From a virus: a DNA stretch of 47,402 nt. This document shows, one piece after another, positions 6,240-39,641 of this stretch. Position 1 is the stretch's first letter. The number at the start of each line of letters is the position of its first letter. The position numbers and the translations under genes were made by a program. The DNA is taken from positions 1 through 47,402 of the IMG/VR virus record IMGVR_UViG_3300010885_023842; one strand, written 5' to 3'. The notes below the pieces were generated by a model. That model was not told where the DNA came from and did no database searches. It saw only the letters and a program-made list of their open reading frames with translations.

Positions 6240-6255
6240 TAAGCAACACACATAT

Positions 6256-6987: not shown

Positions 6988-6999
6988 CAAAGAGATAAA

Positions 7000-8830: not shown

Positions 8831-8841
8831 CTATACGCTGT

Positions 8842-8849: not shown

Positions 8850-8871
8850 TTCAACCACACTAGGAGTAGCC

Positions 8872-9696: not shown

Positions 9697-9698
9697 TC

Positions 9699-9923
9699 AT
9701 GGATAATACTAAGAAAACTGCTATAAGACGGCCTCACTTTCCAGATAGACTAGTATTAGTGCCAATTCATATTCGAGACGAACGTCTTTCAATATGTAGT
9801 ACTTGTCCGGATGCTACTTCTGATCAAATATGCAGGGTAAATGATAAACCGATACATGCTTTAGCTATCAAAAGAAATTATCAATGCCCACACGGGTTTT
9901 GGTCGCTATACTATGGCAGTTAA
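9699..9923 (+). CDS. Small four-cysteine protein, likely zinc-binding
   Basis: The 74-residue product has C33-x2-C36-P, C45 and C63-P in that order, followed by W68. The spacing C-x2-C-x8-C-x17-C resembles short phage proteins that end in a CP..W motif and are thought to bind zinc. No enzyme activity is suggested. It starts two bases after the stop of the oxygenase gene and overlaps the next gene by 11 bases, so it is part of the same operon. Its job may be as an adaptor or a regulator; nothing in the sequence decides this. Confidence 0.6.
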   Translation: MDNTKKTAIRRPHFPDRLVLVPIHIRDERLSICSTCPDATSDQICRVNDKPIHALAIKRNYQCPHGFWSLYYGS

Positions 9924-10641: not shown

Positions 10642-10642
10642 C

Positions 10643-11851: not shown

Positions 11852-11873
11852 ATATATAAAAGTAAAGGACAGT

Positions 11874-14025: not shown

Positions 14026-14027
14026 TA

Positions 14028-14498: not shown

Positions 14499-14503
14499 AA
14501 TAA

Positions 14504-14511
14504 TATTTATC
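14504..14511 (-). promoter_or_regulatory. Possible late promoter element next to the start of the gene at 14498
   Basis: The minus strand reads AGGATAAATATTATT then ATG. GATAAATA fits the late element but leaves only five bases before the ATG, so a transcript from it would be almost leaderless. The same bases contain AGGA as a distant ribosome site. The match could be chance. Confidence 0.35.
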
Positions 14512-14519
14512 CTAATCTG

Positions 14520-15500: not shown

Positions 15501-15501
15501 A

Positions 15502-16443: not shown

Positions 16444-16444
16444 T

Positions 16445-17392
16445 TTATTTGTACTCGTATACTATGCATACACCACCTTGGCCCTGGGTACCAGCACCGT
16501 GTGTACTAACTCCCCCGGCACCTAGTGCCGCATTTGCGTAATTCCATGGATCACTGTGTCCATAATGTCCGCTTTCAATACCGCCACCAAAAAAACTGGC
16601 TCCACCATGCCCGCAATTATGATTGCCGGTAGAGTGTTGATTTCTATGGCCGCTTCCGCCGCCGCCAGTAGCATTAATATTTCCGCCAGTGCCAACACCA
16701 CCATGCCCGCCACTATGCGCCTGGTTATTATTTGCACCATAGCCGCCGCTGGCTGATACATAACCACCAAAGCTAGTTGTTCCGCCTGAGTTATAATTAC
16801 CATAGTAACCACCGCCGGTACCACCAGAAGCTGAAACGGTTACAGCTACAGTAGTAATGGCCGCGGCGGCTATTAGTAATTCTGCATAGCCGCCTGATCC
16901 GCCACTTTCTCCGTAAGTTTGTGCGGCTCCGCCTCCGGCACCTACACACACTACTCTAATATAACTTACATCAGTTCCACTTTTTGTGTAAGTTCCGCCC
17001 GATGTAAATGTATACATAGTTTTAAGAGCACCTTTTTTACTATTAACATAAGTGGCTACTGCCAATTGTGTTGGAATAGCAGTTGTGCTAGTACCTAATG
17101 CAGTATTTGTATCTACTGATGTTATAGCTGGCGTATTTCCGTTAATTTGTAAATTGCTAGTAGCCACAGTTCCTTGTGTAGTTGCTCCAACTGTAACATT
17201 GTTTACTGCTCCGCCTGTGATTGCTACACTATTTGCTGCCTGTGCTGCCAAAGTGCTTTTAATTAAAACAGGAGCAGTTCCATTACCTACCCATAGCTTG
17301 TCATCTGCTATGTTATAGGCCATTTCGCCAGCGGCTAAACTAGCTGGAGTAACACCTGTGCCTGTACTTGTTTTAATCTTGATGATTGGCAT
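16445..17392 (-). CDS. Gly-rich tail fibre or adhesin protein, third paralogue
   Basis: This 315-residue protein begins MPIIKIKTSTGTG and has a KLWVGNG motif, a TFTSGGTYTKSGT strand and VVCVGAGGGA. A Gly-rich region follows with the same GGYGANNNQAHSGGHGG piece as the gene at 15502, and an IVYEYK end. It is the first of the three in transcription order. Two long frames overlap it in other phases; they arise from the GC-rich Gly codons and are not genes. Function as an adhesin follows from the family of Gly-rich fibre domains and the context, not from any catalytic motif. Confidence 0.7.
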   Translation of the reverse strand: MPIIKIKTSTGTGVTPASLAAGEMAYNIADDKLWVGNGTAPVLIKSTLAAQAANSVAITGGAVNNVTVGATTQGTVATSNLQINGNTPAITSVDTNTALGTSTTAIPTQLAVATYVNSKKGALKTMYTFTSGGTYTKSGTDVSYIRVVCVGAGGGAAQTYGESGGSGGYAELLIAAAAITTVAVTVSASGGTGGGYYGNYNSGGTTSFGGYVSASGGYGANNNQAHSGGHGGVGTGGNINATGGGGSGHRNQHSTGNHNCGHGGASFFGGGIESGHYGHSDPWNYANAALGAGGVSTHGAGTQGQGGVCIVYEYK

Positions 17393-18331: not shown

Positions 18332-21300
18332 TTATTTTTGGCTAAAGAAAGCTAGTGCTACTGGAGCACCATCTATTCCACCGATAAATGTCATCTTACT
18401 TGTGACATAAATCTGATTACCTGTTGTATTACTTATCGTATTATTGGCAATGTAGATCTGTCCTGAAGTTAATGTATTTACGTTCAAACTACTTGATCCG
18501 CCACCAATTTGGGCTGTAATATAGCTCTTAATAGCCTTTTGTGTGGGTACAATGCTGTCACTGTTGGCTGTAAAGTACGGATCTGTACTAAAACTTGTAA
18601 TAGTTGCTGATCCTGTACCAACTGCTAAGGTACCCAATGTCAAACTTTGTAATCCGCTTAGAGCAAACGCACTAGCATTTAATGTAGCAGTACCAGTTGA
18701 CTGTTGAACTCCGAACAAATTACCCACGTTAAAGTTACCGTCTTGGTCAGTTGATGTAAAGAACACTCGTCCGCCGCCAGTTGGGTAAGTTTGGTTTGCC
18801 GCGATGGCATTTCCAGGAATCACATTTGGATAGTTTGTCTGTGTTTGGTTACCAGTACCGATATACAAGAAGTCATGTCCAGTTAAACGAACCTGGCTGT
18901 ATTTCAAACGAGTGGTAATTAACACGTTGTGCGCCGGTGCAAGAAGTGTACTTAATGCAGGGTTAATCTGGAATGTAGCTGTATAGTTGCCTGGAGTACC
19001 TAACACGTTTGACACTAACACCAGTTTATACCACTGACTTGTACCAGTAATACTTGAAAACTGTACGTTTGCGCCTGCTGTTGGTAAAGCAAATACGTTG
19101 CTTACGTTTACATAAGCTGAATTTTGATAAATGTCGCCGTATCCATCACCTAATGTGTTTGCAGTAGCAGTTGCGTTATTCAAACCACGATTAGTAAAAC
19201 TTGGATTGCCTAATACTCCGTCACTAGTACGTACACGAATTGGTGCTGTGTTAACCTTGTTAGGATCAAATTGTGTTGCAACCGGACCTGCTGTATAAAT
19301 CATATTTTGCGGAACTGTAGTTGTCAATGTCACCGCAGTTGTGCTACCTGCTGTAGCAGTTACACTAAACTGTGTGCTTGTTACACTTGAACCAATTACA
19401 TAATATGTTGTGTTAGTAGTTAAGCCAGCAATACTTACTGTAAATTCAATAGGTTGATTGTTAGCTAGACTGGTTGATAAGTTAGTAGTATCGTCCGCAG
19501 TAATTAAATTAGTACTTGTTGTGGTAGCAGTAACGTTACCTTTAGCGTAACCAGAACCTGGTTCAATTACGCGAATTTCTGTCACTACGTTGGCCGCTAC
19601 TTTCATACGTCCAAGCGGTGTTGCACCAGTTCGTATACTTGCGGCCGCTGTGCCAGATGTTGAACTGACAGCCGCCCATACTGGCTGTGCTCCAATAACT
19701 GTGCTAGACAAGTTACTTGGATTACCAAATGCTATGGCACTCCAGTTGCTACTGCTTGGCATTGCACGTATAGTCCAAACTAAACCGTCTGGGCTTGTGG
19801 CCGCCACTGTACCTTGCGATATAGCAAAGAATAAACCTTGTGCGTAAACAACTTTTGTCCAAGTATATGCAGAACTTAGCGTACTAGTGATAGTTCCAGT
19901 ACAAGTTGGATTTGCGATCCAACTTGTTCCATAGTTGTATGTGTATGCTACTGCACCAGTTGTTGCTAATGCAACAAATCTGTTATTACCGTATGCAATA
20001 CTTGTCCAAGTTGTTGAGCTTGGTAGTACTCCACCAGTAGTCCAAGTTTGGCCGTTATTCGAAATGCTAGTTACGTTACCGCCATTATTAATAGCAATGA
20101 ATGTTCCTGAAGCACTTCCGCCTGCACCATAAGCAACAGCTGAATAGTAACCAGCACTTAAACTGGTTAATGTTCTTGCGATCCAGTTAGCAGAAGCAAT
20201 TGGATTTGTGCTTGATACCGCTACGGCTGTACCGCTTGCGCCACCTACTGCTACATAGCTACCATTACCATAAGCTAAACCATATAAGTTTAACTGGCTA
20301 ATGTAAGCATTACCGACACCATTGTTAAGCACAGTCCATGCTGATGATAGCGCACTTGCTGTGTTGTAGGCAAAGTATGTACCGGTAGATGCGGTTGTAC
20401 TCATTGCTAAGAATACAGCACTGGTATCTAATATAGTAACAGATGGTACACTAGTATATCCGTAACCTGCAATAAGTGTAGTAAGGGCTGTTACTGCGCC
20501 GTTGCTAATAGTAGGGCTTGCACTTGCTTGTGTAGCAACGTAGGTAAGTGTTGCTGTACCGTTAGTTATGTTGGTATATCCACTAGAAGTTGTGTAATCA
20601 AAAGCTGGTGTAGTACTACTTGTTGTACCACTTGCTGTACATTGATAAATTCTTCCGCTAGCTAATACTTGATAATAAGTTCCGTTAGTAACTGCGCCGC
20701 TTACTGGGTAAGTGGTTGGAGTTAGTCCTTGCGGCTGGCTGATAGTCACTGTTGGAGCACTGAAATAATTCTTACCCCATGTATTCATAGCTATGCCAGT
20801 CATCACACCAGTTACTACTGTAGTAGTTGGAGGGGTTACATATCCAGAACCATTAATAGTCATAGTTACTGCTTGAATAACACCGTTTAGTACTGTACAA
20901 GTTGCGGCTGCACCACTACCTGTTCCACTTACAAACACAATAGTTGGAGGAGTTGAATAGTTATAACCGCCGTTAGTAACAATTACACTTACAACTTGAC
21001 TTGCTGAAGTTCCTGTACCAAGTACTGCTGTCAATACTGCGCTAGCTCCGCCAAATCCGCCTAATGTTACTGTAGCTGTAGCGCCTGAGCCACCACCAAA
21101 AATAACGTTGTTCCATACTTGACTACTTGGCAGTGCGCCACCTGCCGACCACGTTGTACCATTTGTTGAATACTGTGTTGTTGTTCCGTTATTATTGGTA
21201 GCAACAAAACGTCCAGCGCCGTAAGTAACTGCACCATACGCGGCACTGGTAACTGATCTTGCAGTACCAACATAACCCGGCGAACTATAACCAATACGTG

Positions 21301-24300
21301 GTTCAATAATATAACCGGTTGTCAAATCCAATTGCGATACAATAGCTGTTCCAGGTATTACATGATCCCAGCCTGCGGCATATACCGCTGTGCCAATAGT
21401 GCCAGTTGAACTTGTTGAACCAGTCGCTGTAATTGTAACAGTAGTTCCAGCAAATGGACTTGTGCTTACGGCAAATACACTAGTAGTTAAGTTTGTTGCA
21501 TTGACAAAATATGTAGTTGCTGTATCGATACCATTAAATGCAGTACCAAAAGATAACGTCTGTCCTGCTGTTAGTGTATTTGTTGCAGTAATCAAATTGT
21601 TAACTATATTTGTTGCGGTTACTGTTAGAGTTGACGATGCAACAGTTGTAACAGCCACAATATTAGCATTGCTAGCAGTAATTGTTGCACCTGATGCCAC
21701 ACTGAACGCTCCAGCAGTAACGCCTTGCACATAGTAAGGACTCAATGCTGTTAATCCACCAATTGATGTACCAAAGAATATTGGCATACCATTGTACATG
21801 TTTGCAGTACTTGATACAGTCAATGTATTTTGTGTGCCGGTAATAGTTGTACTTGATTGTGCAACAGTTGTGTTTGTGTTCCATGTAGAGCCAGCGCCAG
21901 TACCGCTAATATTAGAAGTAATGTATGTGCCTGCGGCAATTGATCCGCCTGTCAAGAACATGCCAACTGCAATCGTTCCGCTTACAGTACCCACTGTTAA
22001 AATACCAGTAGTTACAGCAATGCTCGATGCTGATAATGTAGCAGTTGCAGTTGTCGACGCTGTAACGGCATATGGTGCAATACTATCTCTAATTACTTGT
22101 GCAACTTTGGTTGGGTTGGAATATGAAATAATATTTGCATACTGTCCAACGCCAGTACCAGCAATAACTTGTATACGATCACCGTTGTAGGCATTATTCA
22201 ATGCTGTGTCAGTAGCCGCAATGGTAATAGAATACACGTTAGCAGTTATCTGACCAACGTTACTAGCAGTGATATAGTTAGTACCGCCAGCGCCGTTACC
22301 ATCATTTTTATCAATTAATCGTGTTTCAAACAATGCCGCATCACGGAATTCATCTTGGAATGCCGCCGCATTATATCCGCTACCACTAATGCTTGGTACT
22401 GTACTTGTATAGTTTGTTCCAGCATTTGCATATTCAAGTCGTAAAACTTGAGTTGTAGCATCTGTTACCACGTTTGTAATATATGCTTGGTTAGCGCGAT
22501 TATTTAAATTTGCATATAGCGGAACTTCAGTTGTATCAACACCTTCAGCAACAACTCCATACACACCGTATGAACTGTTACCATTAGTAGCACGAATACG
22601 ACCGCCCAAATCTGCCATATATCCTGCATAACTATAATAGTTAAACACTGATACTAGTTCCGATAATGCGCCAGCGCCAGTTGTTTGCCAGCCAATACCG
22701 TCGCCAATAATACATGTATAGTCGTTAGCCACCATTGAATGGTATCCACCGCTATGCAATGCTCCGTCAACTTTAGCACCGTATGCCGCGTAACCAAACA
22801 TTGTACAGTTTTGTACATAGCAACTACGTGAATAAATCCATGCGTTACTGTCGTTTGGACCAAAACCTGGATCTAAACTTGTATATGCTCCGCCTGTTGG
22901 ACGCTTAGTTCCAAACGCCACGCTGGCTGTTCCTAAGTAACCTGTTAATCCGTTCATAGTCATATTACGGATGCCAGAAGCATTACGTACTAACCACATG
23001 TTAGAGCCTGCCGATCCATTGATTGAATTTAACAATACTTGCGCATAACGTAAACTTCTATAGTTGCCAGTATATTGTAAATCGTAAACAATAGCATTTA
23101 AATAGTAACCGATATCAGTTTGTGTAAGTGCAGTTGGCGCATAGTATGACACTGTCATGGCAGGTGCTGACACAGCTGACAAGATGACTGTTGCACCAAC
23201 TGTGCCAGTATTAATATTGGTAAAACCTTCGATAGTTGTTAGTGTAAATGTTGTAGTACTAGGAACACTTGCAACATAGTAAATTGTACCAGCAGTTACA
23301 CCGCCTGATACGAATCCTGTATATGTTACAGTACTAGACATACTGCCGCTTGCACCAACCGACAGCGCGGCACCTCCTGCGCTAATCGCAGAAATTGTTA
23401 TTGCGCCTGCACTTGCTGTCAGTACCCAGTAACTTGTGCCGGCAGTTACAGCTCCAAAACTAGTACCAAATACAACAGTACCGTTTGGAACTAAACCTGT
23501 AATAGATCCAACTGTAATGCTAGTAGTTGTATAAGCAGTTGCAGTTGTTGAAGCAGTAGTACTGGTAAATTGTACAGGATCGTTAACTACTAATGCATGT
23601 GCCGCACTGGTGGTAAACGTATTTGTTGGATTAGCTGCCAATGCTGTTAAACTATATGTATAAGTTGAGGCAAAGTATGCTGTAACTTCGTTTTGTAAGA
23701 ATGGAATATTAGCACGTAAAATTTCAGCGCCTTCAATAATACCTAAATTATTATTATAACTAATTGTACCATTCATTTGTGGCTGAACATACTGTGTTGA
23801 TGTCAAATAACTAATAATTGTATTAATATTAGACGTAGCAACTGTTAGTTGTGTAGTATATGATGAAGATGATAATGTTGTTGCTACAAGAGTCTGTAAG
23901 TAATTTAAAGATGCAGTAGTTACAGTTAATTCATAACCTTGTACTTTATAATCTTGGCTTCTGTTATAAGCACGACCAGCTTGAACCGTAGCAAAGTTAC
24001 TACCTAATAATAAATCTAAGAACATTGCCAAAGTAACGTTAAACACGTCGCGTTGTACGTATGTTGACAAGTATGTAAATGCTGTATAATTAGTGTTAAT
24101 ATACCCTGGAACACTAGATTGGCTAATACCTGCAACGCTTACACCGGTTACTGGTACTGCTACAGTACCGCTTGTTGCGGCAACACTCATAGTATATGTA
24201 CCTGTGTTTCCAGTACCAGTACCTAATGCTGTAATAACTGCGCCACCGCCTAATCCAGTTCCAGTAACACTCATGCCTAATGCAATAGTACCAGCTGAAA

Positions 24301-27300
24301 TTGCTGCAACATTTAATGTAGTTGTACCAGTAATAGTAGCAGTAAAGGCCGCTGTTGAACCTGATTGATATGTTGGAACACTTGCACTTACTGCCTGCCA
24401 GGCAGCTAACGATGTTGAACTTGCCGTATTTAATTGCGGCATGTTAATAGTTTGAACAGTTAGTGTTAAACTTGCGCCATTAGTAAATGTACTAATTGCG
24501 GTGCCGTTATAACTGTTTGCCAACTGGAATTGTGTAGTTGTTAAACCTGTGCTAATAACATAGTAAGGAGTAACAGTAGAACCAATAATAGTTGAAGTTA
24601 ATCCGTTACTAGTTGACTGAGGAATAATCATATCGCCAGCACTTAGTCCATGATTGGCTGAACCAACTGTTACTGCACCGTTGCTGATTGCTGTTGAACC
24701 ACCAGTGAATGTAATTGCTGTGCCAGCTAGTGCATTAGCCAGTGTAGTTGCTAAAGTAACTGTTGTTGAACTAGTAGTTGTAGCGGCAACATAATAAGTT
24801 GTTGTTGCGGCTAGTCCGCTTGATGTTGTTACACTGCCACCAGTTGTAATTGGTGTACCTTGAATATAACTAGCTGATGTAATTGTTACTGCTGTGCCAT
24901 TAGTATTGGTAATTGTATTTGCAGTTGTACCAGTAGTGAATGTATTAGTACCGCTAATAGTAACGATTGTTGCTGTTGGTACACCTGTTGTTAATCCGTT
25001 AGTTACAATAGCTGTTACAGTTACAAACAACTGAGCTAGTGTGGCCGCATGAGTACTCGCACCAATCAATCCTGCTCCTACTTGTAATACTTGAGGAACG
25101 GTTGCTTGGACTGGGCTTCCTACGGCTGTGTTAACTACTACAGATTGTGCTAGTGTACTAACGTAGTTGATAGTTGCCGCAAACGCCGCACCAAATCCAG
25201 ATGATATTTGCGTACCGTATAGTGCTGAATAATATGCCATGCCAGCATTAGAACTTGCCCAGTTACCGCCGTAAACTAAATCGTAATGCACACCATCTAA
25301 AATATAACCCATGTCACGGTTTGCTTTTGTTAAACTGTAGTTAGGATTAGATACTAGTGATGAATAATTAGTATTGAAATATGCAACAGATTCAGCTAAC
25401 AAGAATGCACGGTTAGATTCAAGCAAACCAGCTGCCGCTGATGCATCAGAATATGTTGCATAAGTGACGCCGCCTGAACTTACTTGTGTAACTCTTATAA
25501 CAATATCGTTAACCGGTGTGTAACCACCAATACTTGTTCCAAGAATTTTAATCAAACTACCAACTGTGTAACTTGATCCAGCTGTTGTTGGAGTAATAGT
25601 ATAATTGTAATATCCGTTGCCGTTATAAGCACGTACAATAGTAAACACTGCGCTAGAACCACCACCTGAAAGTGTAGTTCCGGATACTGTAGTGTAAGTT
25701 GTTCCGCCAGATAATGAAGTAGATGTTGCTATTGTTGAAAGTGCTGGCTGAGGCCATGTAATTTGTGGAGGAGCCGCTGGACCACCTTGCATGTATGCAG
25801 TAAGGTCGTCAATAGTAGTTTGAATTTGTGCTACTGCACCACTTGCCGCAATTTGTTTCATCTTGTAATACATGAAATTAATTGCACCAAGTGTTGGTGT
25901 TAATTGGCTACTTGTTGAACTACGTAAGTTTGTAGCACTGGTATTACCTCTGTTAAACGCACGACCTATTTGAATAGCATTAAAGTTACTGCCAAATACC
26001 ATATCGTACGCTGTATAAGTTGCAATAAGGCCAGCATCTCTGTTAATTAATGTTGGATTTGTATAAGTTACACTTTGATAATATTTGTAAACCCAATATT
26101 GTGCATCGCTAGCAATATTACTATTTTGTGCTACTACAGCGTTGTAAGCAGTTTGTAGTGCAATGCTTTGTGCTCCAATATAAGGAGCTACTGTAGCATC
26201 AGCGACACCGTTTGCAATCCAGTTGATAACGTTTTGTACACGATCTTGTGCAAATCCGCCAGCGGCCGCACTGCCTGCGCTACCTGCTGTAACTTGAGTA
26301 ACGTTGTTACCGCTTGTTGCACTAACAGCACTGCCTTGTGCCACAGTTGTAATAACTGCTTTTAAACGAGTCATAGCCGCTTGATAAGCCGCCGATTGTG
26401 CAGTAGTAATTTGTAAAATGTTTAATGAATAATATGCACCGCCAGAAATTAATGATTGTGTATTTCCACCATAGGTTAAATCATATAAAATACTGTCTAA
26501 GATATATGTAATATCTCTAACGCCTAAATTATATTGACCGGCTTGTCCTGTAAATCCTGAAGTACCTGGATTATTAATTAGATAAGTTAATGTTTCTGTA
26601 ATTAAGAAATTATAGTTTTGACGAATTTGTGCAACTGCGTTTGCATATCCAGTTGTCGTTCCAGTTGCATTGCTACCGGTTGTGGTAGCATAAGCAGTAT
26701 TAGTAATTGAACCGGCACTATAGCCAGTTGGCTGCGGCATACTAATAGCTGGCTCACCGCCTAAACCATTAGCAACTAGCTGATAGACAATGTTAAAACT
26801 TGCTTGCAAGTTAGTAACTGCTGTTGTACTACCAGTACTTGCGGCTGGTAAGCTAGTGATTTGTGTTGCAGTATTTCCGGTTGTTGGAGTAATAGCAGTA
26901 TTACTCATCAGATTTGGAATTAGTGTTTTAATTCTGTTTAATGCAACAACTGCCTTAGGTACAACTGTAGCTAAAGTTACATCAGGTGCAAATGGTTGAA
27001 CTACTGTTGAACGTAATTCGTCACCAACTAATGCAGTATAAGCTGGCACGTTGATTGGAAGAATTTCGTTATATGTTCCAGTTTTAATATTAATTGTAGT
27101 TGCTGGATTGATAACAGCTGGTAATACGTTGTTAGTAGTGCCAGCCGATAAACAACTAGTTGCATATCCAATTAAAGTTTGTGCTTTCGATACTACACCG
27201 GATTCAACTGTATAATTTGAATTAATTTGTTGTTTTGCTTTTTCTGTTTGTACAGTACCTGCAACAGTTTGACTGCCAGTAGCAGAACTTAAGAAGCTTA

Positions 27301-30300
27301 CACTTCCTGAACTACTTGCAGTAACTTGCCATGTGCCATTGTATGCAAGAGGTGTTACGCCAGCAACTGTTACAAAACTTCCAACAGTAAATGCTGATCC
27401 AGTATATGTAATGGTAGCAGTACCACCTGAAGCACTTGCACCAGTTGTTGCAATACTTGGGTTAAACACCAGTTGATAATTTGTACCAGGTGCAGTATTA
27501 GCCAGTACGTTTGGAATTAAAGTAGATGATAGATAATTTAAACCTGCGTTAAACGGAGGTATATCAAATGCACTAACTCCGCTAGTATATGTTGCTCCGG
27601 TCGAAGTAAAATATGCTTGTACGTTTGTAGTTGTTTGATATGTACCGTTGTGTGTAATATCAAATATCAAACCTTGGATCATTAATCCAGTGTCGCGCTC
27701 AGTTTTGCTTTGGCTGTAACTGAATGTACCGACGTTGCTACTGCCTGTGCCTACTGAAAATAGTGTTGGTACCAAAGCAGCCGCGTAACTGCTAGCAACT
27801 GTAAATGTTGTGCCAGTTAATACCTGAGCTACATAATAAGTTGTTCCTGCAACAATATTACCTTGTGTAGAACTAAACACAATTGGCATTCCAACATACA
27901 TATTAGCTGTAGTGGTCTGTGCTGTTGTGCTTGATCCGCCAACTGTAATAGTATTGCTTGAAGTTCCTGTTACGTTAAAACTATATTGATAAAGAACATA
28001 ACTGTTAACTTCTTTCATCATAAATTCTTTGCTAGTAGTTAACAAGAATTTGGCATTAGGATTTAAATATCCATCTTCGATTTGTTGGCAAGCATAACGA
28101 ATACTTGCCCAAGGTTTGTCAACAGTTGTGCCTTGGCCGTTGGTAACAATGTCTGTTCCGCTAGTAGCAACAAACACAGCATTATTGATTTGCCCATAAT
28201 ATTGCCATGCTGGGGTTGTACCGTTAACACGAAGGATCTGTCCGTCTGTACCAATGGGTAAACGTGTTGGGCCGTTGGCACCATAATAAAACATGTCGCC
28301 TTGAGTGGTAAGAACAGCTTGTTCTGTACCACTGGCCATTAAGTTCCAATATAAACCAGTTGTATCGTTATCTGGACGATTGCCGCTTGCGCCAATGTGT
28401 GCTAATACGCAAATATATGTACTAACTCCCCATAAGACAGTATCACCGATAACATAAGTTGTTCCGCTGGCCCAAGTTACACTGATACCAGTTGCACTAA
28501 CGCCACCCGATTGTATTACGCCGCCGGATACCGTATTAACTGTGATTAATAAATCATTTGCTGGGCTCAAACCGCCCAATGCTGTACCAAGTACTTTTAT
28601 AGTATTAGTTGATGCATAGCCAGTTCCGCCAGCTGTTACTGTAACAGTATATGTTGTATTTTTTGCCAGAACTGTAAATGTTGCACCTGAACCCGATCCA
28701 GTAACGTTTGTAGTTGTAGGACTTGTGTATGTGTTATAGCTAGGATTCCATTTAATACCAGAATTTAACTGACCCCAGTAGGTTGTAAATGGTGGTTTAG
28801 GATTTGTAGTAGCGGTAACTGTACCGGTACTGTAGTTTGACATTGTTACTGGAGCACCGCCCGGGGTAAGACTCACAGTAAATGTTGTATTGCCTGTTGG
28901 CAATGTCAACACATAATACTGTGTTGTTGAACTTAATAATCCATAACTTGATGCAAATGTAATTGGCAAACCTGTTACTAAATTAAGTGTCGATGATGTG
29001 GTAATTAAATTGTTTGTACCTGTGATAGTTTGATTACTAATAGCTGTACCGCTATAATTAGTAGTCCAATTTGTTCCACTACCACCAGTAATATAATATG
29101 TGTTGGCAGCTAGTCCGCCGCCACTTAAGAACATGCCGATAGCAACTGTACCAGTAATTGACCCGCCGATCGATAATGCTCCAATGTTACTAATGTTAGT
29201 ATTGTTCATTGTTGCAGTAGCGGTAGCAGTTTGCGTAATCGATAGGGTTTGTACAGCATTATCTGCGGTACAAAGATATGTATATCCGTCAACACTTACA
29301 ACGTTACCAACTCTATAACCAGTTTGTCCAGCTTGTAATCCACTTGGGCTTGCAGACCAAGCGCCGGCAAATGTTATACCGGTTGTAAATGGTTGCCAGT
29401 AAGTTGTTGCTGTACTCGGAGTTTGTCCGGTATGATTTTGTAATGCAACGTATGTGTAACCACCATAGGTTACCACATCGCCTTGAACATAAACGGTTGC
29501 ATTTGACCATGAATTCAAAAATTCAAATCCAGATACAAACAATGTCCAGTTAGTTGCACCGCTGAATGTGCCCGATGAAGTATGTGCCAATGTACATAAC
29601 CATAAATCTGCACCATATGTTACAACGTCGTTAGCACGATATCGAACGCTACTACCACTCCAGGTACCTTGATAATATATTCCAGCATTAAATGTTGACC
29701 ATTTTGCTTGATCGTTTTCAAGACCTAAAGTTGCTGTGTTTGCCGATACGTGTGCAGTATTACAAATATAAGTGTATCCGCCGTAGCTTACCAAGTCGTT
29801 TAATTTAAAACGTGTATTAGTTGACCATGCGCCAATCCAATTGATGTTACTTGAATAAGGAACCCAATACTGAATAACAGATGTTAAACCGGAAGGAGTA
29901 CCAGCGGTAGTGGCAATTGCCGGGCCGCCTTGGGTGTTACTTAGTGTAAATCCTGTACCAAGTCCGTTAGTTGCAACAATGTAATAAGTACCAGATCCGC
30001 TAGCAGTACCATTAATAGTACCTGTGCCAACGTTAGTTCCGGAAATTACAACCGACATTCCTACATTTAATGTAGTAGACGAACAGGTAAAAGTTCCGTT
30101 AGAACCAATTGCTGATATAGTTAGTGCATTATATTGATTATTTTCTAATCCTAATTGACTCACGCCAGAAACTGTGCCAGCCGATGACAAGGCATATGAA
30201 CCGGACAGCGCAAAACTTACTGTACTAGTAGTACATGCGGTAACTGTGAATGTTGTGTTAATCGTATTAGTTGGGCTTGACGTAGTAGTTGGACTAAATC

Positions 30301-30718: not shown

Positions 30719-30738
30719 TTTATATCATCCTCTGATAG

Positions 30739-30746
30739 TATTTATC
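30739..30746 (-). promoter_or_regulatory. Late promoter (GATAAATA) and leader for the 4128-residue gene
   Basis: The minus strand reads AAAGATAAATACTATC in the gap after the 2958-residue gene. GATAAATA ends 20 bases before the ATG at 30718, and the ribosome site GAGGA lies at 30728-30732. This gives the second giant gene and the smaller genes after it (to 14028) their own late transcript. Confidence 0.75.
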
Positions 30747-30764
30747 TTTGTTATATTTTACGAA

Positions 30765-33700
30765 TTATCTTGTGCCGGCTCTACTAAATGCATTTCGTCC
30801 GTAGAAATTCAGCGCAGCCAAATTGCCGTCTACATTGATGTTTAAATTAACCGATGGTGCGATTGATCCTGGAACAACTGCAAAATTAACTTTACTAGTC
30901 ATTTTTACATTAGAACCGGTTGTTCCGTTTGGTATTGTGGATTTTATAAGGTTTGGACCTCCTACCACAACAGTACCTGCTGTCAATTGTCCAGTAAAGG
31001 TATTTGCACCGCCCTGACTCAAACGACTGGTTAGATAAGTTTTAATCGCCTTCTGTGTAGGAACTACGTTATCGCTATTGGCGCTAAATGTAGAATCTGT
31101 ACTAAATTGATTAACAACCACACTAGAACCTCCTACACTAATACCGCCCAAGCTCAGTGTGGTTAATCCAGTTAATCCAAATTGGCTTGCACTCAATGTT
31201 ACAATACCAGTGGCCTGTTGAACTCCAAACAAACTACCCACTTTAAAATTACCGTCTTGGTCAGTCGAAGTATAGAATACACGCCCATAATTTGCTTCAA
31301 TAGTTTGATTGTTAGGATACGAATTTCCCGAGTTAGTCAACGGATACAATGAATTCACTAAATCGCCAGATCCTATGTATAAGAAATCGTGATTGGTTAA
31401 TCGTGCTTGACTGTATTTTGTACGAATACTGATTACAGTACCGTTAGCAGTTGCATTAGCTGTACTAATCGCCGGACTGACTGAAACGTTTGCTTCTAAG
31501 TTTGGAATACTAGTACCGTATACTGGATAGGCACTTGTAACTTTATAAATTTGACTTACTCCGGTAATAGTCAAGTTATCTCCTGGGCTTGGTAGCCTTG
31601 ACAAGTTATTGATAATCACCGACAATCCTGTTTGATACTGGTCGGCAAATCCCGATCCTGATATTAAAACAGATGTAGAATTACTGTTATAACCATTACC
31701 TTTATTATTAAATGTTGGACTGCTTAATGTACCATTACTTAATCTTAAAGAGGCCTGTACGTTAGTTGTAACATTAGGATCAGTAACGACTAATGTTGGG
31801 GAAGAAAATGTGTTAGACCCTGCCGATGTTTGATAGCCGCCGCCTGGTTCCCACTCGGCGATGCTGGTGATAATTCCCGAAGTTACACTAGGACGACCTT
31901 TTGTTTTACAACCTGCATTAATTAAACTACCGGCAGCTTGTCCGCCCAATGTTGTTATAGTACCAAAATAATTTGTTGGGTTAATACCAAATGCTGTGGC
32001 AAGGCCATATGCTTGTGATACTACTGCTTGTTGATTCCATTGTAAACAATCTTCGCTAGTATAAGCTACTGCACTATTGGAATTCAACGCAGTAAATGCG
32101 CCGTTTCCATAGACCACAACACTTGCCTGAACAGAAATATTACTGCTAGACCAAGTTTTTCCGTCTTGAGAAAATGCAGGTACTCGGCCAGAACTGCTTA
32201 CAACAACAAATGTCTGTTGTCCAAAAGCAATACTTGACCAGGTACTAGAAGCTGGTAATGCGCTGGCAATCCAAGTTTGGCCGTCGGCGCTATATGCCGC
32301 TGATCCGCTGTTGCTTGCTATTGCTACAAATAAACCATTACCATATGTTAATCCTACATTAGTTCCAGCGATAGTAGAACTTAACATCGCAGTACTAGCA
32401 TTTGCTCCGTCAAAGTGTAATAGCGTTACAGTATTAATATCAGGTATAAATGGATTTGTAGAAGGAGTAAATGTTGTACTATATGATCTCGAAGTAGTGC
32501 TAACTCTAAACTCATCAATATACCCGGTTAAGCGGCTCGCACTTGTATAATATGCACCTATCGTAAAACCTTTGGCCGCATAGTTATTAGTATCAGTGTA
32601 AGTTGTAGTTTGCACTGTTCCGCCTACAAATAAACGTGTTACACCGCTAGCTCTTGCTACAGCAATATGAGTCCATGTGTTGGCAGAAAGAGCTGTGTTG
32701 CCTGTGATAACATAACTTCCGTTTACATATAGTCTCAACAAGCCAACATCAGTGGTATCTAGTAAAAGAGATACTTCGGTCGCACTAGCACGTTGGTCAA
32801 ATATTCCTTGAACTGTGGTAACTGACGTTAAGTACACCCAACACTCGATAGCAAAATCGCCGACGCCGTACGCATAATCTGAGCTGGATGCAGTTGTAAT
32901 AAAAGTACTAGCAGTACCATCTAGGTATAGTGAACTTGTACCAAATTGTTTTTGTGTAGTGCTAATTTGTGCATTACCTACTGCCGGTGTGTTGCTTGCA
33001 GTATTGACAAATATGTGATTGCTTGGCAAGAATGAAGTCGTCCAAGTAGATCCGTAATTTGTCGAATATGCCGCAGTTGTACTGCCTGCATCGATTGCAA
33101 CAAATCTACCATTGCCGTATGTGATGTTTGACCACGTTGTACTGCTTGGTAAATTAAAAGTTCTCCAGCCAGCGCCACCAGATTTGCTAACTGCTACTTG
33201 TGATGATCCGCTTGCTATTGCAAGCCAATAGCCATTGCCGTATGCAATGCTTGACCAACTCTGTGACGATGGTAGTGTGATGGTTGACCAAGTTCGACCA
33301 TCAGGCGATCCTGCGGCAGTTTGTCCTAAATTTGGCAATGCAATAAAATAATTATTTCCGTAAGCCATCGATGTCCAAGATTGTCCAGGACTTAGTGAAA
33401 CTGCACTTGTATATGTACTTTGATTAAATGGCGGTGCGCTATAGATTAATCGAGGTTCAATAAAATACACACTAGAATTATCTAATACTGATTGTATCGG
33501 TGTACCGGGATTAATATGATCCCAACCTACAGCCGCGATATTCATTGATCCAGTCTTAGTTTGCAATGCTATTGGACTAGCATTAGTAGATGATCCGGAT
33601 ATAGTTCCTTGTGCTAGTGATACTGCAAATGTTGTTCCTGATGAACCAGTGGGTAAATTTTGAATATAATAAGTTTGCCCTATAGTTACAGCTGACCCAC

Positions 33701-36700
33701 CAAACAAACTTGTCGAGAATGTGGCTGTCATCGCACCAGTACCTAATGTTAACGATTTAACAGCAGTTGTACTAGATGCTGTCATCGATCCAGTAGTTCC
33801 ACTTAGTGTAAACGAGGTCGGACAAGTTTTTGCTGTCATCGATCCGGTTCCACCTGACATAGTAACGGCTTGCTGGCTTGGTAATTGACTAACTGTAATA
33901 GAACCGTTTAATCCTTGAGTACCAAACGCAAGTATATAATAGATAGATCCTGAAAGAATGTTAGGTTCCCAACTTGTTCCAATAAATTGTATAGGTTGAT
34001 TTGGAACAAGACCAGTAGTATCTGAAATTGTAATTAAATTAGTTGATACAGCCGTTGCTGTTACGGATACTCTAATTACACTGCTTGCAATAGTAAATTG
34101 TGTTGAATTAATAATACTACTGATATAATATTTCTGGCTGTCAACAATGTTGTCGTATACATTTGTAAATATTATTGGGTTCAACACCTGTAATGATGCT
34201 GTTGAAGCAACTGTAAGCGCATTTGTTCCGCTAGTGGTCGCTGTGACTGTAACTGTAGATAGTGTTGATGAAATTGTAAAATTACCGATATCGATAATGT
34301 CCGAGATGTAGTAAACTACGCTATCGGTTACGCCACCGATAGCAGTTCCTGTAAACTGAATCGGATAATTAACAACCATATTAGTAGTTGTAGCTTGCAG
34401 ATAATTATTATTTGCTGTAAAGTTTACAATCATTGAACCTGATGCAGTATTCAACTGATATACCGTACCGGCATAGTTTGCACTTATTTGAAAAGTAGTT
34501 GGTGTGATGGTTCCTGGAACAACATAGTAAATGTAATTTCCAATCACGTTACTAAGCAACGCACCTGCGCCAGCCGAGAATGTGACACCCATGTTGCCGG
34601 CAAGGCCTGCGGTAGAACTGCAAACAAAATAATTACTAACTCCGCCAACTGCGCTAGTTATTGTAGTTTGCGCTAAGTTGGTCGAAGCCACACTGGTTGT
34701 ATAATATGTTGGAATAAATTGTACAGCTTGATTCAAATACATTGTGCTGACATTAGTACCAAGACTCGCCAGTGTAAAAAATCCAGTACCTTGGTTTGTA
34801 CTTGCAATTTGTAAACTAGTAAATGATTCTTTTAACACCCATGCATATTTTGGTGTTGGGCCAGTATTTCGGCTATCAAAATAGCTGATGTATCCATACT
34901 GTCCTGCGCCAGTTCCGCTATTAACAAATACACGCATACCTGTATAGTTTGCATTTGTATTTGTATCAGCTGTTGCTAATTGAATGAATTGATTTGTTCC
35001 GCTTTGACAGTTATTGCTGGCTGTTAAATATCCAGAACCGCCTGTGACTCCTGTCGAATCGGTAGTAACGTATGTTTGGAATATACTTGCAGATCTAATT
35101 TCATCCGCAATAGTGACAACTCCTGTTCCAGATCCTGTAATATTTAAATTAGCATAAGCTGAATATTTCGAAGTTGCATACACTTCAAGATAGAAATTTG
35201 GTTTGTATGTGCTTGCAGAAAGTTCAGCTTGTGCTCCATACAGATAAGTGTATTGGCCGGCAGTACCGTTAAATCCTCTTGGATATATTCTAAATTGTAA
35301 ATTTGTATTTAGGCCAGTAGTGTCATTGATAGCGAACCATATTCTATACCAACCTATACTGTTACCTGTTGTTGAAATTGCTTGACTAATTGCTCCGTAT
35401 TGTTGTGATAATACGCCGCCGCCGGAGTTTGACACACTAGATACACCAGTAACGAAATTATAATTAAGTCCGCTAGTTACAGTTTGTGAACCAGAAAATA
35501 TACCTTGTATATCTATGCTAGTAGCTGTTCCTTTTTTAACATACACACTAAGTGTATAATTCAATGCACTATTGATTGGTACTGTTCCTGCACTGGTTAC
35601 TGTTAAAATAGAACTACCAGATAAAGAAAATACTGTAATGATACAATCGTTAACGCTGTTAACACCGCCTAGTTGTCCGCCTGCAATGTACAATTGATTT
35701 GAACCAACGTATCCACTACCGCCAGCATAAACTGTAACTACATAAGCAGTACTGGTAACAGTAACGTTGAATGTTGCTCCTGAACCAGATCCGCTAACGT
35801 TAACTGCACTAATATTAGTATATGTTGCTCCGGCAGCTGGAATTGCTATGTCTTGATAAACATAGCTTCCGCCTGGTCCCGATGTCAAACCTTGTAAAGT
35901 CCATGCTTCTGTTATACCAGTTAATGCTGTGGTATTTTTAGAAAATATAACATTGTTATCGCTAGTCCAGTTTGCACCTAAAAAGTTATTACTGAAATTT
36001 AATAAATTAGTAGTTGAAGTATTATACGAAGAGCCAGCATTAGCATAGCTTAATCGCAATAGTTGTGCGGCAGATCCGTAAGAGCTTTGTACTGTTGCTT
36101 GCGATTGACTACTTTGATTAAAAACTATTCCTGTAGCAGGAGTTTCTGTTGCATCAAAACCGGTTGCAATAACACCATATATTCCATATGAACTGTTACC
36201 GTTGGTAGCACGAATACGTCCGCCGGCCTCGGCCATGTATCCAGAATATCCGTAATATGAAAACACAGAAACTGCTTCACATAACGAACTAGGACCAGTA
36301 CACCATATGCCGATACCGTCATTGACGATATGTGTGAAGTCATTACATACAATAGATTTATTTCCGCCGTTGTGTAATGTTCCGTCAATTTTTAATGCGG
36401 TACATCCGTTACCAAACGCAGTTACGTTTTGTACATATGGGCTACGACGATAGATCCATGCTGTTGTATCGTTAGGGCCGGTACCTGGATCTAGACATGC
36501 ATAGCTTCCGCCTGTGGGTCTTTGAATCAAATTAACATCGATTTGACCTAGTGTTCCTGCCAACCCTGTTAAAGTCATGTTGCGAAGTCCAGTACCGTTG
36601 CGTAATCTAAACATATCTTTTAAATTATCACCGGCATACACTGTCATATTTCCGCCAGTATAACTGGTCAATCTTACAATAGTTGATCCAGTATTTGTTA

Positions 36701-39641
36701 AAGTTAAGATGCCGCCAGTTCCATTTATTGTGCTTACAGTGATGTTAATATCATTAACCGATAAATTAACAGTGCCTGTTCCAATACCTGCGACGGCCGA
36801 TGCTACGAACGAAGTTCCTACTGTATTGTTTGATGCTCCGTTTAATGTAAAATTAGTAGTACCAAGACTTGCAATAGTATAGGTAACACCTTGTATCATA
36901 GCTGTTGCTAAAATAGTCGGAGCATTTACTTGTCCTCCAGGTATTCTAAGCGTATCACCTGCCAAATAATTAGATCCTGCATAACTAACTGCTACAGAAT
37001 ATAATCCACTGCTTAATGGACTCACTGTAAATGTTGCATTGGATCCTGCGGCTACAATATTAACAGCCGATTGATATGTTAGCGATCCTGTTAAGCTAGT
37101 TACTCCAACTTGAAGAGTGCTAGGATTAATAGTAGATCCAACAATATAATATTTTTGTCCTGTTGTTATTCCGCCAAAACCTGCATAAGTTGTTCCGATT
37201 ACGTTTGTTATGTTTGGATTAGCAAACATTATCGGTTGTTGATCTGTCATGCCAGTTACGGTGTTAACCGTAAAAGTATTTGTTGTAGAACTGCTTGTAG
37301 TGGCAGTAGCAATAATGTTTATGTTAGGTTGTACAATAACGCCGCGCAATTCATCACCAACAATTGCAGTATTAGCCGGAACTGTAATTGGCAGGGTTTC
37401 ATTATAAGTACCAGTCTTAACAAAAATATTTACGCTTACACCAGTATTTGGTGGAGGAAGTGCCGCAGTACTTTGTGTAGTTAACGAACTTGTAACATAT
37501 CCAATCAGTGTCGCGGCAGAGCCTACGGCAGAAACTCCAGTTACTGCATTTGTTTCCGATCCAGGTAAACCGGTTATTTGATAAATGATTGGTGTTATTC
37601 CATTTGTTGTTTGATAATTTGCCGGTGGTGCAGTTTGTGTAAGTGTATAATTTATTAAACTAGTCAAGTATGTTAACATCGGCAAATAAAACGGAACATC
37701 TACTGCAACTGCACTACTAAAGAATTGATTGTTTTGACCAAAGGCAAAAAATGCTAAGGTAGCGGCTATAGTCTGACTATTACCACCTCGTCCGATATCA
37801 TAAGCGATTGCATCAACTATGTAGCCGGCATCTCTAGAAGCTTTTGTTGTATCTAACACATAAGAAGATGTATAAGGAGATAGGTTATTTGTAATCTGAT
37901 ATCTTGCCCACTGAATCATTTCTGCTAAAATCCAAGATTTATTAGCATTTAGTAGTGCTACTCCGTTTGGAAATTGTGTTCCGTTAAGTACCACATTACA
38001 TGCATACGCAATAGATTTAAATGGTCGGTCCCATGTTGATCCGTATTCTGTTGTATCTTGTCCAGTAGTTGAGCATACATAGTATACATTTGAAATAGTA
38101 TTGATGTTAGCCCAAGCAGGAGATGCTGTTTTTGTTCTCAACGTATAAGTGTGTGGTCCTATTGGTAATGCAGTATAACTAAGAGTAGAGCTAGAGTAAT
38201 ATTCTGAATCTCCTATAGTATTCATAGCATTTTTTCTAGCGTGTGTTACATAAATGCTCCAATAAGTATTTCCAGTATCTGAATCAGGTCTATTGTTTGT
38301 TGGACCAACAGCTTGCATACCTGTTAAGTACGCTGAATTATGGCTTTGTATACAAACATACGTGGTATTTTGCCATAATGCAATATCTCCAACGCTGTAG
38401 TAATTATTGAGAACCCAAGTTTTAGTCCAGTAAGTACTAGGTACTAATAAATTCCAGTAAAGATAATTTATTCCAGTAAAGATTAATTGTTGGCCGTCAG
38501 TTAATGTTGTTGTTGAATCAGGAGCCGCACTTAATGTTACGGTCACACCCGATACGCTTACTACCGTCTGACCTTGTGTAAATCCCACACCTATCACATA
38601 CATCCCTGAAGTAATGCCAGTTCCCGACCCAACTTTTAAAGTTGTTCCTGAACTACCAGAAGCAGTATAGGTAGTTGTTATGTTAACAGCTGATGGATCT
38701 TGATTTGAATTATTAGTATTCGCAGAGTATACTCTACCATGTCGACGAACAATCGTACCTACAAGATAATTCGTTACTGAATTCCATTCTCCGGAATAAG
38801 AAAATCCTTGAGTAAACAACGACCAGCTACTTGAACTAGTGCTTGGTGTGTTTCCAGAATTATTAGCTACTTTACTAATGTAAGTGTAACCACCGTATTC
38901 AACAGTGTCGCCTAATTGATAAGTTGCTCCTGCTGAATAAGGATTAGTAGGAGAGTATTGCTGGCCTGGTAACCATAATGTCCAGTTTGACGGAGTAAAT
39001 GTGCTGTCTGAATTATAAGTTGCACATTGATAAATGTTATCGCCAACTTTGGCTAGATCGTTAAGTTTGTATCGAGTTCCGCCACTCCATGTACCTTTAT
39101 ACTCCACGCCGCTAGAAAATATTTTCCAAGAACTTTGATTCGCTTCGAGTCCTAATAATGCTGTGGCCGCGCTGGTATGATTAGCAGTACAAATATATAC
39201 TATGCCGCCGTATTTGACTACATCGCCTATGCCGTAGACTGTACTAACAACCCATGTTATATGCCAGCTAGGAAATTGTGTATATAATGCCCAGTTGCTA
39301 GATTGACTTGCAAATGCTGTACTGGTATGTTGAGTCGTACAATAGTAAAGCTGACCGCCAAATATAGCAATATTTCCTAAACTATAAGGAGTTCCTGAAG
39401 ACCATTGGCCTGTAAATGTTTTACCTTCTACAATTAAATTCCAAAGTGGTGTAGTTGCGCCACTACCTGTCACATAATATAAGTCGTTGTAAAAACTAGA
39501 TGCATTGGAGGTGTTTGCAATCAAACACACATACGTTTTACCCTGGTAACTTACGATTGCATCTTTAGTATAAACCGTACTTGGTTTCCATGCACCTTGC
39601 CAGGTAAAACGTAATCTTCCTATTTTAAATTCTGCTGCCAT
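30765..39641 (-). CDS. Giant modular tail fibre protein, 2958 residues
   Basis: The frame of 8.9 kb encodes a paralogue of the 4128-residue protein. MAAEFKIGRLRFTWQGAW starts the protein; eight carbohydrate-binding-like modules follow (to about residue 480), then a RPFKSIAYAC segment, one helical repeat with SRDAGYIVDAIAYD (560-634), a KTGTYNETLPITVP and GDELRG segment (730-770) and a beta-helix-like part (1010-1170). Next is a beta-sandwich with YLYGAQAEL (1213-1484), then propeller-like repeats (2070-2560) interrupted by a LamG-type concanavalin-like domain (2227-2414), and a C-terminal HDFLYIGSGD and DNVVPTQKAIKTYL region. It probably is a second host-binding fibre. AGGA lies nine bases from the ATG. 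Confidence 0.85.
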   Translation of the reverse strand: MAAEFKIGRLRFTWQGAWKPSTVYTKDAIVSYQGKTYVCLIANTSNASSFYNDLYYVTGSGATTPLWNLIVEGKTFTGQWSSGTPYSLGNIAIFGGQLYYCTTQHTSTAFASQSSNWALYTQFPSWHITWVVSTVYGIGDVVKYGGIVYICTANHTSAATALLGLEANQSSWKIFSSGVEYKGTWSGGTRYKLNDLAKVGDNIYQCATYNSDSTFTPSNWTLWLPGQQYSPTNPYSAGATYQLGDTVEYGGYTYISKVANNSGNTPSTSSSSWSLFTQGFSYSGEWNSVTNYLVGTIVRRHGRVYSANTNNSNQDPSAVNITTTYTASGSSGTTLKVGSGTGITSGMYVIGVGFTQGQTVVSVSGVTVTLSAAPDSTTTLTDGQQLIFTGINYLYWNLLVPSTYWTKTWVLNNYYSVGDIALWQNTTYVCIQSHNSAYLTGMQAVGPTNNRPDSDTGNTYWSIYVTHARKNAMNTIGDSEYYSSSTLSYTALPIGPHTYTLRTKTASPAWANINTISNVYYVCSTTGQDTTEYGSTWDRPFKSIAYACNVVLNGTQFPNGVALLNANKSWILAEMIQWARYQITNNLSPYTSSYVLDTTKASRDAGYIVDAIAYDIGRGGNSQTIAATLAFFAFGQNNQFFSSAVAVDVPFYLPMLTYLTSLINYTLTQTAPPANYQTTNGITPIIYQITGLPGSETNAVTGVSAVGSAATLIGYVTSSLTTQSTAALPPPNTGVSVNIFVKTGTYNETLPITVPANTAIVGDELRGVIVQPNINIIATATTSSSTTNTFTVNTVTGMTDQQPIMFANPNITNVIGTTYAGFGGITTGQKYYIVGSTINPSTLQVGVTSLTGSLTYQSAVNIVAAGSNATFTVSPLSSGLYSVAVSYAGSNYLAGDTLRIPGGQVNAPTILATAMIQGVTYTIASLGTTNFTLNGASNNTVGTSFVASAVAGIGTGTVNLSVNDINITVSTINGTGGILTLTNTGSTIVRLTSYTGGNMTVYAGDNLKDMFRLRNGTGLRNMTLTGLAGTLGQIDVNLIQRPTGGSYACLDPGTGPNDTTAWIYRRSPYVQNVTAFGNGCTALKIDGTLHNGGNKSIVCNDFTHIVNDGIGIWCTGPSSLCEAVSVFSYYGYSGYMAEAGGRIRATNGNSSYGIYGVIATGFDATETPATGIVFNQSSQSQATVQSSYGSAAQLLRLSYANAGSSYNTSTTNLLNFSNNFLGANWTSDNNVIFSKNTTALTGITEAWTLQGLTSGPGGSYVYQDIAIPAAGATYTNISAVNVSGSGSGATFNVTVTSTAYVVTVYAGGSGYVGSNQLYIAGGQLGGVNSVNDCIITVFSLSGSSILTVTSAGTVPINSALNYTLSVYVKKGTATSIDIQGIFSGSQTVTSGLNYNFVTGVSSVSNSGGGVLSQQYGAISQAISTTGNSIGWYRIWFAINDTTGLNTNLQFRIYPRGFNGTAGQYTYLYGAQAELSASTYKPNFYLEVYATSKYSAYANLNITGSGTGVVTIADEIRSASIFQTYVTTDSTGVTGGSGYLTASNNCQSGTNQFIQLATADTNTNANYTGMRVFVNSGTGAGQYGYISYFDSRNTGPTPKYAWVLKESFTSLQIASTNQGTGFFTLASLGTNVSTMYLNQAVQFIPTYYTTSVASTNLAQTTITSAVGGVSNYFVCSSTAGLAGNMGVTFSAGAGALLSNVIGNYIYYVVPGTITPTTFQISANYAGTVYQLNTASGSMIVNFTANNNYLQATTTNMVVNYPIQFTGTAIGGVTDSVVYYISDIIDIGNFTISSTLSTVTVTATTSGTNALTVASTASLQVLNPIIFTNVYDNIVDSQKYYISSIINSTQFTIASSVIRVSVTATAVSTNLITISDTTGLVPNQPIQFIGTSWEPNILSGSIYYILAFGTQGLNGSITVSQLPSQQAVTMSGGTGSMTAKTCPTSFTLSGTTGSMTASSTTAVKSLTLGTGAMTATFSTSLFGGSAVTIGQTYYIQNLPTGSSGTTFAVSLAQGTISGSSTNASPIALQTKTGSMNIAAVGWDHINPGTPIQSVLDNSSVYFIEPRLIYSAPPFNQSTYTSAVSLSPGQSWTSMAYGNNYFIALPNLGQTAAGSPDGRTWSTITLPSSQSWSSIAYGNGYWLAIASGSSQVAVSKSGGAGWRTFNLPSSTTWSNITYGNGRFVAIDAGSTTAAYSTNYGSTWTTSFLPSNHIFVNTASNTPAVGNAQISTTQKQFGTSSLYLDGTASTFITTASSSDYAYGVGDFAIECWVYLTSVTTVQGIFDQRASATEVSLLLDTTDVGLLRLYVNGSYVITGNTALSANTWTHIAVARASGVTRLFVGGTVQTTTYTDTNNYAAKGFTIGAYYTSASRLTGYIDEFRVSTTSRSYSTTFTPSTNPFIPDINTVTLLHFDGANASTAMLSSTIAGTNVGLTYGNGLFVAIASNSGSAAYSADGQTWIASALPASSTWSSIAFGQQTFVVVSSSGRVPAFSQDGKTWSSSNISVQASVVVYGNGAFTALNSNSAVAYTSEDCLQWNQQAVVSQAYGLATAFGINPTNYFGTITTLGGQAAGSLINAGCKTKGRPSVTSGIITSIAEWEPGGGYQTSAGSNTFSSPTLVVTDPNVTTNVQASLRLSNGTLSSPTFNNKGNGYNSNSTSVLISGSGFADQYQTGLSVIINNLSRLPSPGDNLTITGVSQIYKVTSAYPVYGTSIPNLEANVSVSPAISTANATANGTVISIRTKYSQARLTNHDFLYIGSGDLVNSLYPLTNSGNSYPNNQTIEANYGRVFYTSTDQDGNFKVGSLFGVQQATGIVTLSASQFGLTGLTTLSLGGISVGGSSVVVNQFSTDSTFSANSDNVVPTQKAIKTYLTSRLSQGGANTFTGQLTAGTVVVGGPNLIKSTIPNGTTGSNVKMTSKVNFAVVPGSIAPSVNLNINVDGNLAALNFYGRNAFSRAGTR
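32400..32960 (-). other. LamG / concanavalin-like domain inside the 2958-residue fibre protein
   Basis: The segment starts with FGTSSLYLDGTAS and GDFAIECWVYL and ends with TGYIDEFRVSTTSRSY and LLHFDGAN. This is the usual order of a Laminin_G_3 jelly roll. It separates two propeller-like blades of the host protein and is absent at the matching place in the 4128-residue paralogue. LamG domains in phage fibres usually bind glycans. Confidence 0.7.

Follow-up and report, generated by a model that had tools for sequence, protein, structure and literature searches.

Two neighbouring genes of an uncultured virus (IMG/VR record IMGVR_UViG_3300010885_023842) encode giant tail fibres that appear to be built on one plan but differ by 1170 residues, which raises the question of where the additional length resides and what it consists of. 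The stretch analysed here, referred to as the window, is one whole IMG/VR contig of 47,402 bases. A preliminary description based on the sequence alone had proposed that both proteins share the same order of parts, that the difference lies in one segment between a GDELR motif and a beta-helix (about 1330 residues in the larger and 240 in the smaller protein), and that domain duplication created a longer arm on the same scaffold. The observation is confirmed by our analysis, whereas its interpretation is only partly supported, since the size difference is a net of three unequal terms and the unit that changes is a pair of domains. In addition, the helical repeats, whose affinity the preliminary description had not seen, are distant relatives of the phycobiliproteins, the light-harvesting antenna proteins of cyanobacteria.

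Two colinear paralogues on one scaffold

The larger protein (L, 4128 aa) and the smaller protein (S, 2958 aa) are both encoded on the minus strand. A BLASTP comparison gave colinear blocks (L/S) at residues 2-99/3-107, 269-501/101-328, 1004-1242/599-772, 2572-2770/1008-1206 and 3818-4111/2621-2920, at 31-55% identity. Three further blocks are not colinear: two pair the repeated N-terminal modules with each other (11-113/124-222 and 294-493/14-216) and one is a mobile beta module (663-735/1273-1345). The landmarks follow the same order, with EFKLGR at residue 3 of L and EFKIGR at residue 4 of S, GDELR at 1232 and 762, and PTQKAIK at 4058 and 2861, respectively; the propeller named in the preliminary description remains putative. 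Both proteins match the tail fibre family PHROG 9851 over several parts (L, E 3.1e-125 in 6 stretches; S, E 3.6e-122 in 4), and both start with modules that exceed the Pfam cut-off of 26.2 bits for the carbohydrate-binding module CBM_5_12 (PF02839), with 96.3 and 86.7 bits. The features discussed below are the following, with approximate boundaries where stated:

18332-30718, minus strand: L, larger giant tail fibre, 4128 aa
30765-39641, minus strand: S, smaller giant tail fibre, 2958 aa
29159-30718, minus strand: N-terminal part of L with CBM_5_12-like modules (PF02839, 6 stretches, E 1e-27 for the protein; boundary approximate)
27149-27766, minus strand: repeat R0 of L, before GDELR, corresponding to the single S repeat (HMM match at residues 988-1079; boundary approximate)
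26969-27112, minus strand: GDELR block of L, read from its sequence pattern as the first coil of the inferred beta-helix
22991-27025, minus strand: amplified segment of L from GDELR to the next inferred beta-helix coil, 1345 aa
26669-26962, minus strand: half repeat (helices h4-h5) directly after GDELR (sub-threshold HMM match at 1253-1277; helices in models of relatives)
26219-26656, minus strand: repeat A1 (HMM 1384-1467)
25715-26206, minus strand: repeat B1 (HMM 1541-1631)
25484-25711, minus strand: beta module between the two A-B pairs (from sequence; strands at the equivalent place in the model of a relative)
24929-25456, minus strand: repeat A2, phycobiliprotein-like (HMM 1779-1867; six-frame PF00502 match at 25214-25450, E 0.003, 12.6 bits, below cut-off)
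24164-24928, minus strand: beta modules between A2 and B2 (from sequence; strands in the model of a relative; approximate)
23684-24136, minus strand: repeat B2 (HMM 2206-2289)
23006-23683, minus strand: Cap repeat, interrupted by beta modules, next to the inferred beta-helix (HMM 2516-2608)
22349-23005, minus strand: inferred beta-helix block of L (54.5% identical to S over 200 columns; not confidently modelled)
18386-19267, minus strand: conserved C-terminal part of L with PTQKAIK (44.6% identical to S; found in 14 of 14 related records)
37452-37979, minus strand: single repeat of S, R0 equivalent (HMM 581-674, 98.9 bits)
37317-37439, minus strand: GDELR block of S
36633-37316, minus strand: segment of S between GDELR and the inferred beta-helix, beta modules only, with no repeat hit
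36012-36632, minus strand: inferred beta-helix block of S
32337-33002, minus strand: Laminin_G_3 domain found only in S
30882-31781, minus strand: conserved C-terminal part of S with PTQKAIK

At the nucleotide level, similarity between the two genes, tested with one 1001-base piece, is confined to short stretches. Positions 31042-31286 resemble parts of 18400-19400 at the 3' ends of the two genes (82% over 101 bases and 77% over 65), while most of the pair is similar only as protein.

The distance from GDELR to the beta-helix marker is 1345 residues in L and 251 in S. However, a single amplified segment does not account for the whole size difference, as the 1170 residues are the net of +470 before GDELR, +1094 in the segment and -394 after it, and the match to the total is partly coincidence. 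In addition, roughly 520 of the 1345 residues are beta modules according to our own division of the sequence. Among the 11 unique S/L pairs (one S, G006_S of the related locus G006, is truncated at its start) the middle term is 876-1094 aa and is always the largest positive one, while the total ranges from 595 to 1602. Module traffic is also seen elsewhere: S contains its own Laminin_G_3 domain (PF13385, E 6.1e-18, query window 32307-33008, minus strand) at a place where the relative G002_S has no residues, and the relatives G001_L and G003_L carry an extra block of roughly 230-250 aa after the position equivalent to residue about 2930 of the window's L, pointing to another insertion site.

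Copy number changes by pairs of repeats

A profile HMM built from the repeat motif finds six copies in L, five of them after GDELR, and one in S. Each repeat scores 64-99 bits and the gene pair is conserved in 11 related contigs, which argues against chance. The single S repeat corresponds to R0, the L repeat before GDELR, so all five in the segment are extra to L. Natural intermediates, whose existence had been set as a test beforehand, were found in related loci and in further regions of the same contigs. After four fragment loci (L030, L046, L055, L063) and identical proteins were dropped, 28 distinct L and 11 distinct S proteins remained (L045, cut by its contig end, is counted among the L proteins but left out of the length statistics). 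L has six repeats in 13, four in 12 and two in 3 proteins, never three or five, while S has one in 11 of 11. The counts are the same with two HMMs, and the sub-threshold hits are mostly the half repeat after GDELR, which together with the even copy numbers led us to reject amplification of single repeats. Copy number rises with the length of the segment (Spearman 0.78, n 27), although the sequences are related and thus not independent.

Mean identities are 37% for A1-A2 and 29% for B1-B2, against 23-28% between the A and B classes, so that A1 resembles A2, B1 resembles B2, and the changing unit is an A-B pair. On a tree of backbone columns that leaves the segment out, copy number needs at least 4 changes among L, and the number of independent changes is therefore small. 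In L057, a related L protein with six copies inside a four-copy clade, the second pair is orthologous to the only pair of its neighbours (81 and 87%), whereas the extra first pair is most like the A1/B1 of another clade (52 and 45%) and less like its own second pair (45 and 33%). The extra pair was thus gained in different places in different lineages, which suggests repeated gain, loss or exchange rather than one duplication. The pairs of the relative G006_L do not sort as cleanly into A and B classes. The two-copy L proteins also have an upstream paralogue (1467 and 1729 aa beside 1902 and 1586 aa), so paralogues are of similar size when no A-B pair is present. S as the short ancestor of L was rejected, as both are old and both are present in two-copy relatives.

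Position of the amplified segment

In the cyanophage DSL-LC03 and in S-SSM7, a GDxLR-type coil is followed within a few dozen residues by the next coil, and in P-SSM5 the stretch before that coil is uninterrupted. In the window's proteins both places are interrupted, which we read as inserts in loops of what looks like one beta-helix, the amplified segment being a loop insertion between two of its coils. The beta-helix itself, putatively right-handed and pectate-lyase-like, is inferred from a sequence pattern, with only a weak Pectinesterase match in Pfam (E 0.16) and a model in which pLDDT is under 50 from residue 407 on.

The repeats are predicted to adopt a phycobiliprotein-like fold

A Pfam search with the whole proteins found no repeat family, and sequence searches of the PDB with the whole proteins or with the query A3 returned only chitin-binding-like and other weak N-terminal matches, or nothing. 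We examined predicted structures of relatives of the window's protein. The arm of the relative G005_L (1188 aa, 32-row alignment) was modelled with pLDDT 73 and pTM 0.66, with helices mostly at 80-92, and each repeat has about five helices. Foldseek gave no PDB match at E below 0.001 (0.06 or worse), but its best small targets included many phycobiliproteins. VIA-align 2 listed 50 entries, all of them phycobiliproteins or derived fluorescent proteins (Z 14.8-16.9, best 2.2 A over 138 residues on repeat A2). A second model, of repeat R0 in the minimal fibre L060, again gave 50 of 50 listed entries (Z 14.2-15.5). As mostly helical models may reach a best Z near 14 by common arrangement, the relation was tested separately by sequence.

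A profile of 37 repeat units searched against 177,635 PDB sequences at E up to 10 gave 57 hits, 56 of them phycobiliproteins (best E 1.6e-4), aligned on the bilin-site motif C-x-R-D; the remaining hit is an autotransporter adhesin (2wpr, E 9.9e-4). With isolates left out, leaving the window's clade alone, 22 of 23 hits are phycobiliproteins, with a best E-value of only 0.016. With isolate rows only, there were 133 hits, of which the 60 examined are all phycobiliproteins or derived, with a best E-value of 2.1e-6. The Pfam family PF00502 exceeds its cut-off of 22.2 bits in units of DSL-LC03 (33.6 bits), S-CAM1 (27.8) and S-WAM2 (27.3), but only 6 of 37 units match it at all, and the window's own repeats do not reach the cut-off, A2 having 12.7 bits. 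In six-frame searches of 33 records (32 besides the window) PF00502 gave a match in 11 at E up to 1, all in giant-fibre frames, and over the cut-off in 2; four of 14 controls also gave a match, three of them below the cut-off.

A tblastn search with A2 at E up to 1 hit 117 of 50,697 phage records, nearly all cyanophages, and a repeat profile found units in 20 of 24 isolates examined, often in several giant frames, although a different profile was used for the last five. The bilin-attachment Cys of C-x-R-D is present in 77 of 82 isolate units, but in only 27 of 143 units of the window's clade, where the R is kept in 126 and the D in 139. It is absent in all seven repeats of the window (0 of 7), indicating that there they are most likely structural. 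The window's clade has neither psbA nor CpeT in the 25 virus records searched (the longest 153.7 kb, many of them fragments), so a cyanobacterial host is not indicated.

Comparison with other fibres

The PHROG 9851 scaffold of Kyanoviridae and pelagiphage (P-SSM5, S-SSM7, Mosig) has N-terminal modules, a GDxLR-type coil, an inferred beta-helix block and a conserved C-terminal part in the same order, but in the three that were read it is a single gene of 1245-1477 aa without phycobiliprotein-like repeats. The giant fibre or virion proteins of cyanophages (S-CAM1, DSL-LC03, S-CAM4, S-PM2, Syn1 and others) carry arrays of the same helical domain in frames of about 3000-7300 aa; there the bilin-type Cys is kept, and the arrays lie before the GDxLR coil in DSL-LC03 or further on in S-CAM4. 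The phycobiliproteins themselves (PF00502: phycocyanin, phycoerythrin, allophycocyanin) share with the repeats the fold predicted by the two models, the R-D of the bilin motif and the overall helix order, whereas the phage domains are embedded as repeats in a fibre, show low similarity and, in the window, lack the Cys. The BFVD entry A0A6J7WHK8 ('ChiC_BD domain containing protein', uncultured Caudovirales phage) covers nearly the whole arm at 39% identity and TM 0.63, and its name does not describe the repeats. In S-CREM2, a T4-like cyanophage, a 14.9-kb long-tail-fibre ORF was detected in virions with 286 unique peptides (PMC10665884), so giant fibres of this size are real virion proteins, irrespective of whether that ORF holds the repeats. 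We found no publication describing phycobiliprotein-like domains in phage fibres, although only openly licensed papers were searched, so that absence from print is not shown.

Proposed architecture and alternative explanations

We propose, with reasonable though not full confidence, that S and L are tandem paralogous giant tail fibres of a T4-like (Kyanoviridae-related) phage, built on one scaffold of N-terminal modules, a beta-helix, a variable stalk and a conserved C-terminal part. In this view, two loops of the beta-helix accept inserts. Loop 1, before the GDELR coil, would hold one helical domain in both proteins, while loop 2, between GDELR and the next coil, would hold beta modules in S and, in L, an array of phycobiliprotein-fold domains that grows or shrinks by A-B pairs. 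The colinearity, the copy numbers, the pair-wise classes and the relation to phycobiliproteins in sequence and predicted fold are demonstrated by our data. In contrast, it is by inference that the scaffold is a beta-helix, that both ends of the array meet at it to form a side arm, that A and B pair with each other as alpha and beta subunits do (which would explain the steps of two), and that the arm changes reach or receptor contact; carbohydrate binding by the N-terminal modules, the presence of either protein in the particle and any bilin binding or light harvesting are likewise no more than inferences from sequence. The loop geometry depends on the beta-helix, and both models are of relatives rather than of the window's protein.

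Convergence of a helical bundle that merely resembles phycobiliproteins would be compatible with the weak Foldseek values, the Z scores reachable by common helical arrangement and the sub-threshold Pfam scores of the window's copies. However, we consider it very unlikely, as sequence searches independent of any model return almost only phycobiliproteins with the motif in register, three isolates pass the Pfam cut-off, and the Z score at rank 50 is still 14.2-14.8. That the differences reflect only general module traffic, with the repeats being incidental, finds some support in the three segments of unequal length, in the beta modules that fill part of the segment and in a four-copy L that reaches 4890 aa, and it is true of the rest of the protein. 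As an account of the segment it seems unlikely, since the loop is the largest positive term in 11 of 11 unique pairs and its length tracks copy number.

The direction and the route of the changes are less certain. Loss from an ancestral L with four or six repeats is possible, since on the tree the two-copy group is nested beside a four-copy protein, L053 (96/89 support), and G007 (four copies) is sister to G006 (six copies); yet S has one copy, the marine single-scaffold fibres of Mosig, P-SSM5 and S-SSM7 have none, and L057 shows a clear gain. Arrival of the extra pairs mainly by recombination between phages, rather than by duplication in place, can likewise be suggested only tentatively. It is favored by the affinity of the first pair of L057 to another clade's A1/B1 and by whole-module insertions elsewhere, such as the Laminin_G_3 domain of the window, whereas in the main clade the A1-A2 and B1-B2 similarity fits an old duplication.

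Overall, these results show how the arm of a phage fibre, putatively a receptor arm, changes length by discrete domain pairs at one place, with natural two-, four- and six-copy forms. They also identify a large unannotated part of the giant virion proteins of cyanophages as relatives of the host's antenna proteins, which bears on where the cyanophage fibre domains came from and gives cyanophage cpeT a testable alternative substrate.

Association with cpeT and other observations in the window

In 11 of 11 isolates with full-length CpeT (records W05-W13, W17 and W18) the gene lies 1-4 kb from a fibre with these domains on the same strand, just upstream of the giant fibre whose repeats carry the bilin-type Cys (e.g., 4404-4940 and 6005-17086 in locus L066, and 2939-3478 and 4184-16237 in locus L068). 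CpeT is counted among the T-type lyases, and the T-type lyase CpcT serves the Cys-155 site of beta subunits (PMC2327270, PMC10452541). A Cys two positions before the conserved R occurs in 77 of 82 isolate units and a second Cys 70-130 residues later in 63 of 82, in frames with 0.58% Cys, although any Cys within a 61-residue span is expected by chance in 0.30 of units. These counts were not selected for Cys, unlike the conservation in a 36-row alignment whose rows were chosen to have C-x-R-D and a second Cys, which is thus not evidence for it. One could speculate that the fibres are stacks of phycobilisome-like (AB)3 discs, in which three fibre chains each give an A-B pair, explaining the steps of two, and that in cyanobacterial isolates the domains still carry bilins attached by the phage's own CpeT. 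We regard this as very improbable on present evidence and the association with cpeT as a lead rather than a result. Eight further CpeT carriers have a shorter, divergent CpeT far from the fibre, most of the 11 isolates were picked because they hit the repeat, and of the eight CpeT carriers picked by name only S-PM2 is adjacent. Moreover, the synteny may simply be inherited, DSL-LC03 keeps the Cys without CpeT, and paired Cys could be disulphides. In the window's clade, which lacks the Cys in most units and CpeT in all 25 records searched, bilins are unlikely.

Elsewhere in the window, three neighbouring Gly-rich ORFs (335, 313 and 315 aa; 14520-17392, minus strand) look like paralogues of one another. 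A block of genes at 5628-14025 (plus strand) resembles, by eye, 2OG-Fe(II) oxygenases and two flavin-dependent halogenase-like proteins (10643-11851 and 11874-13460).
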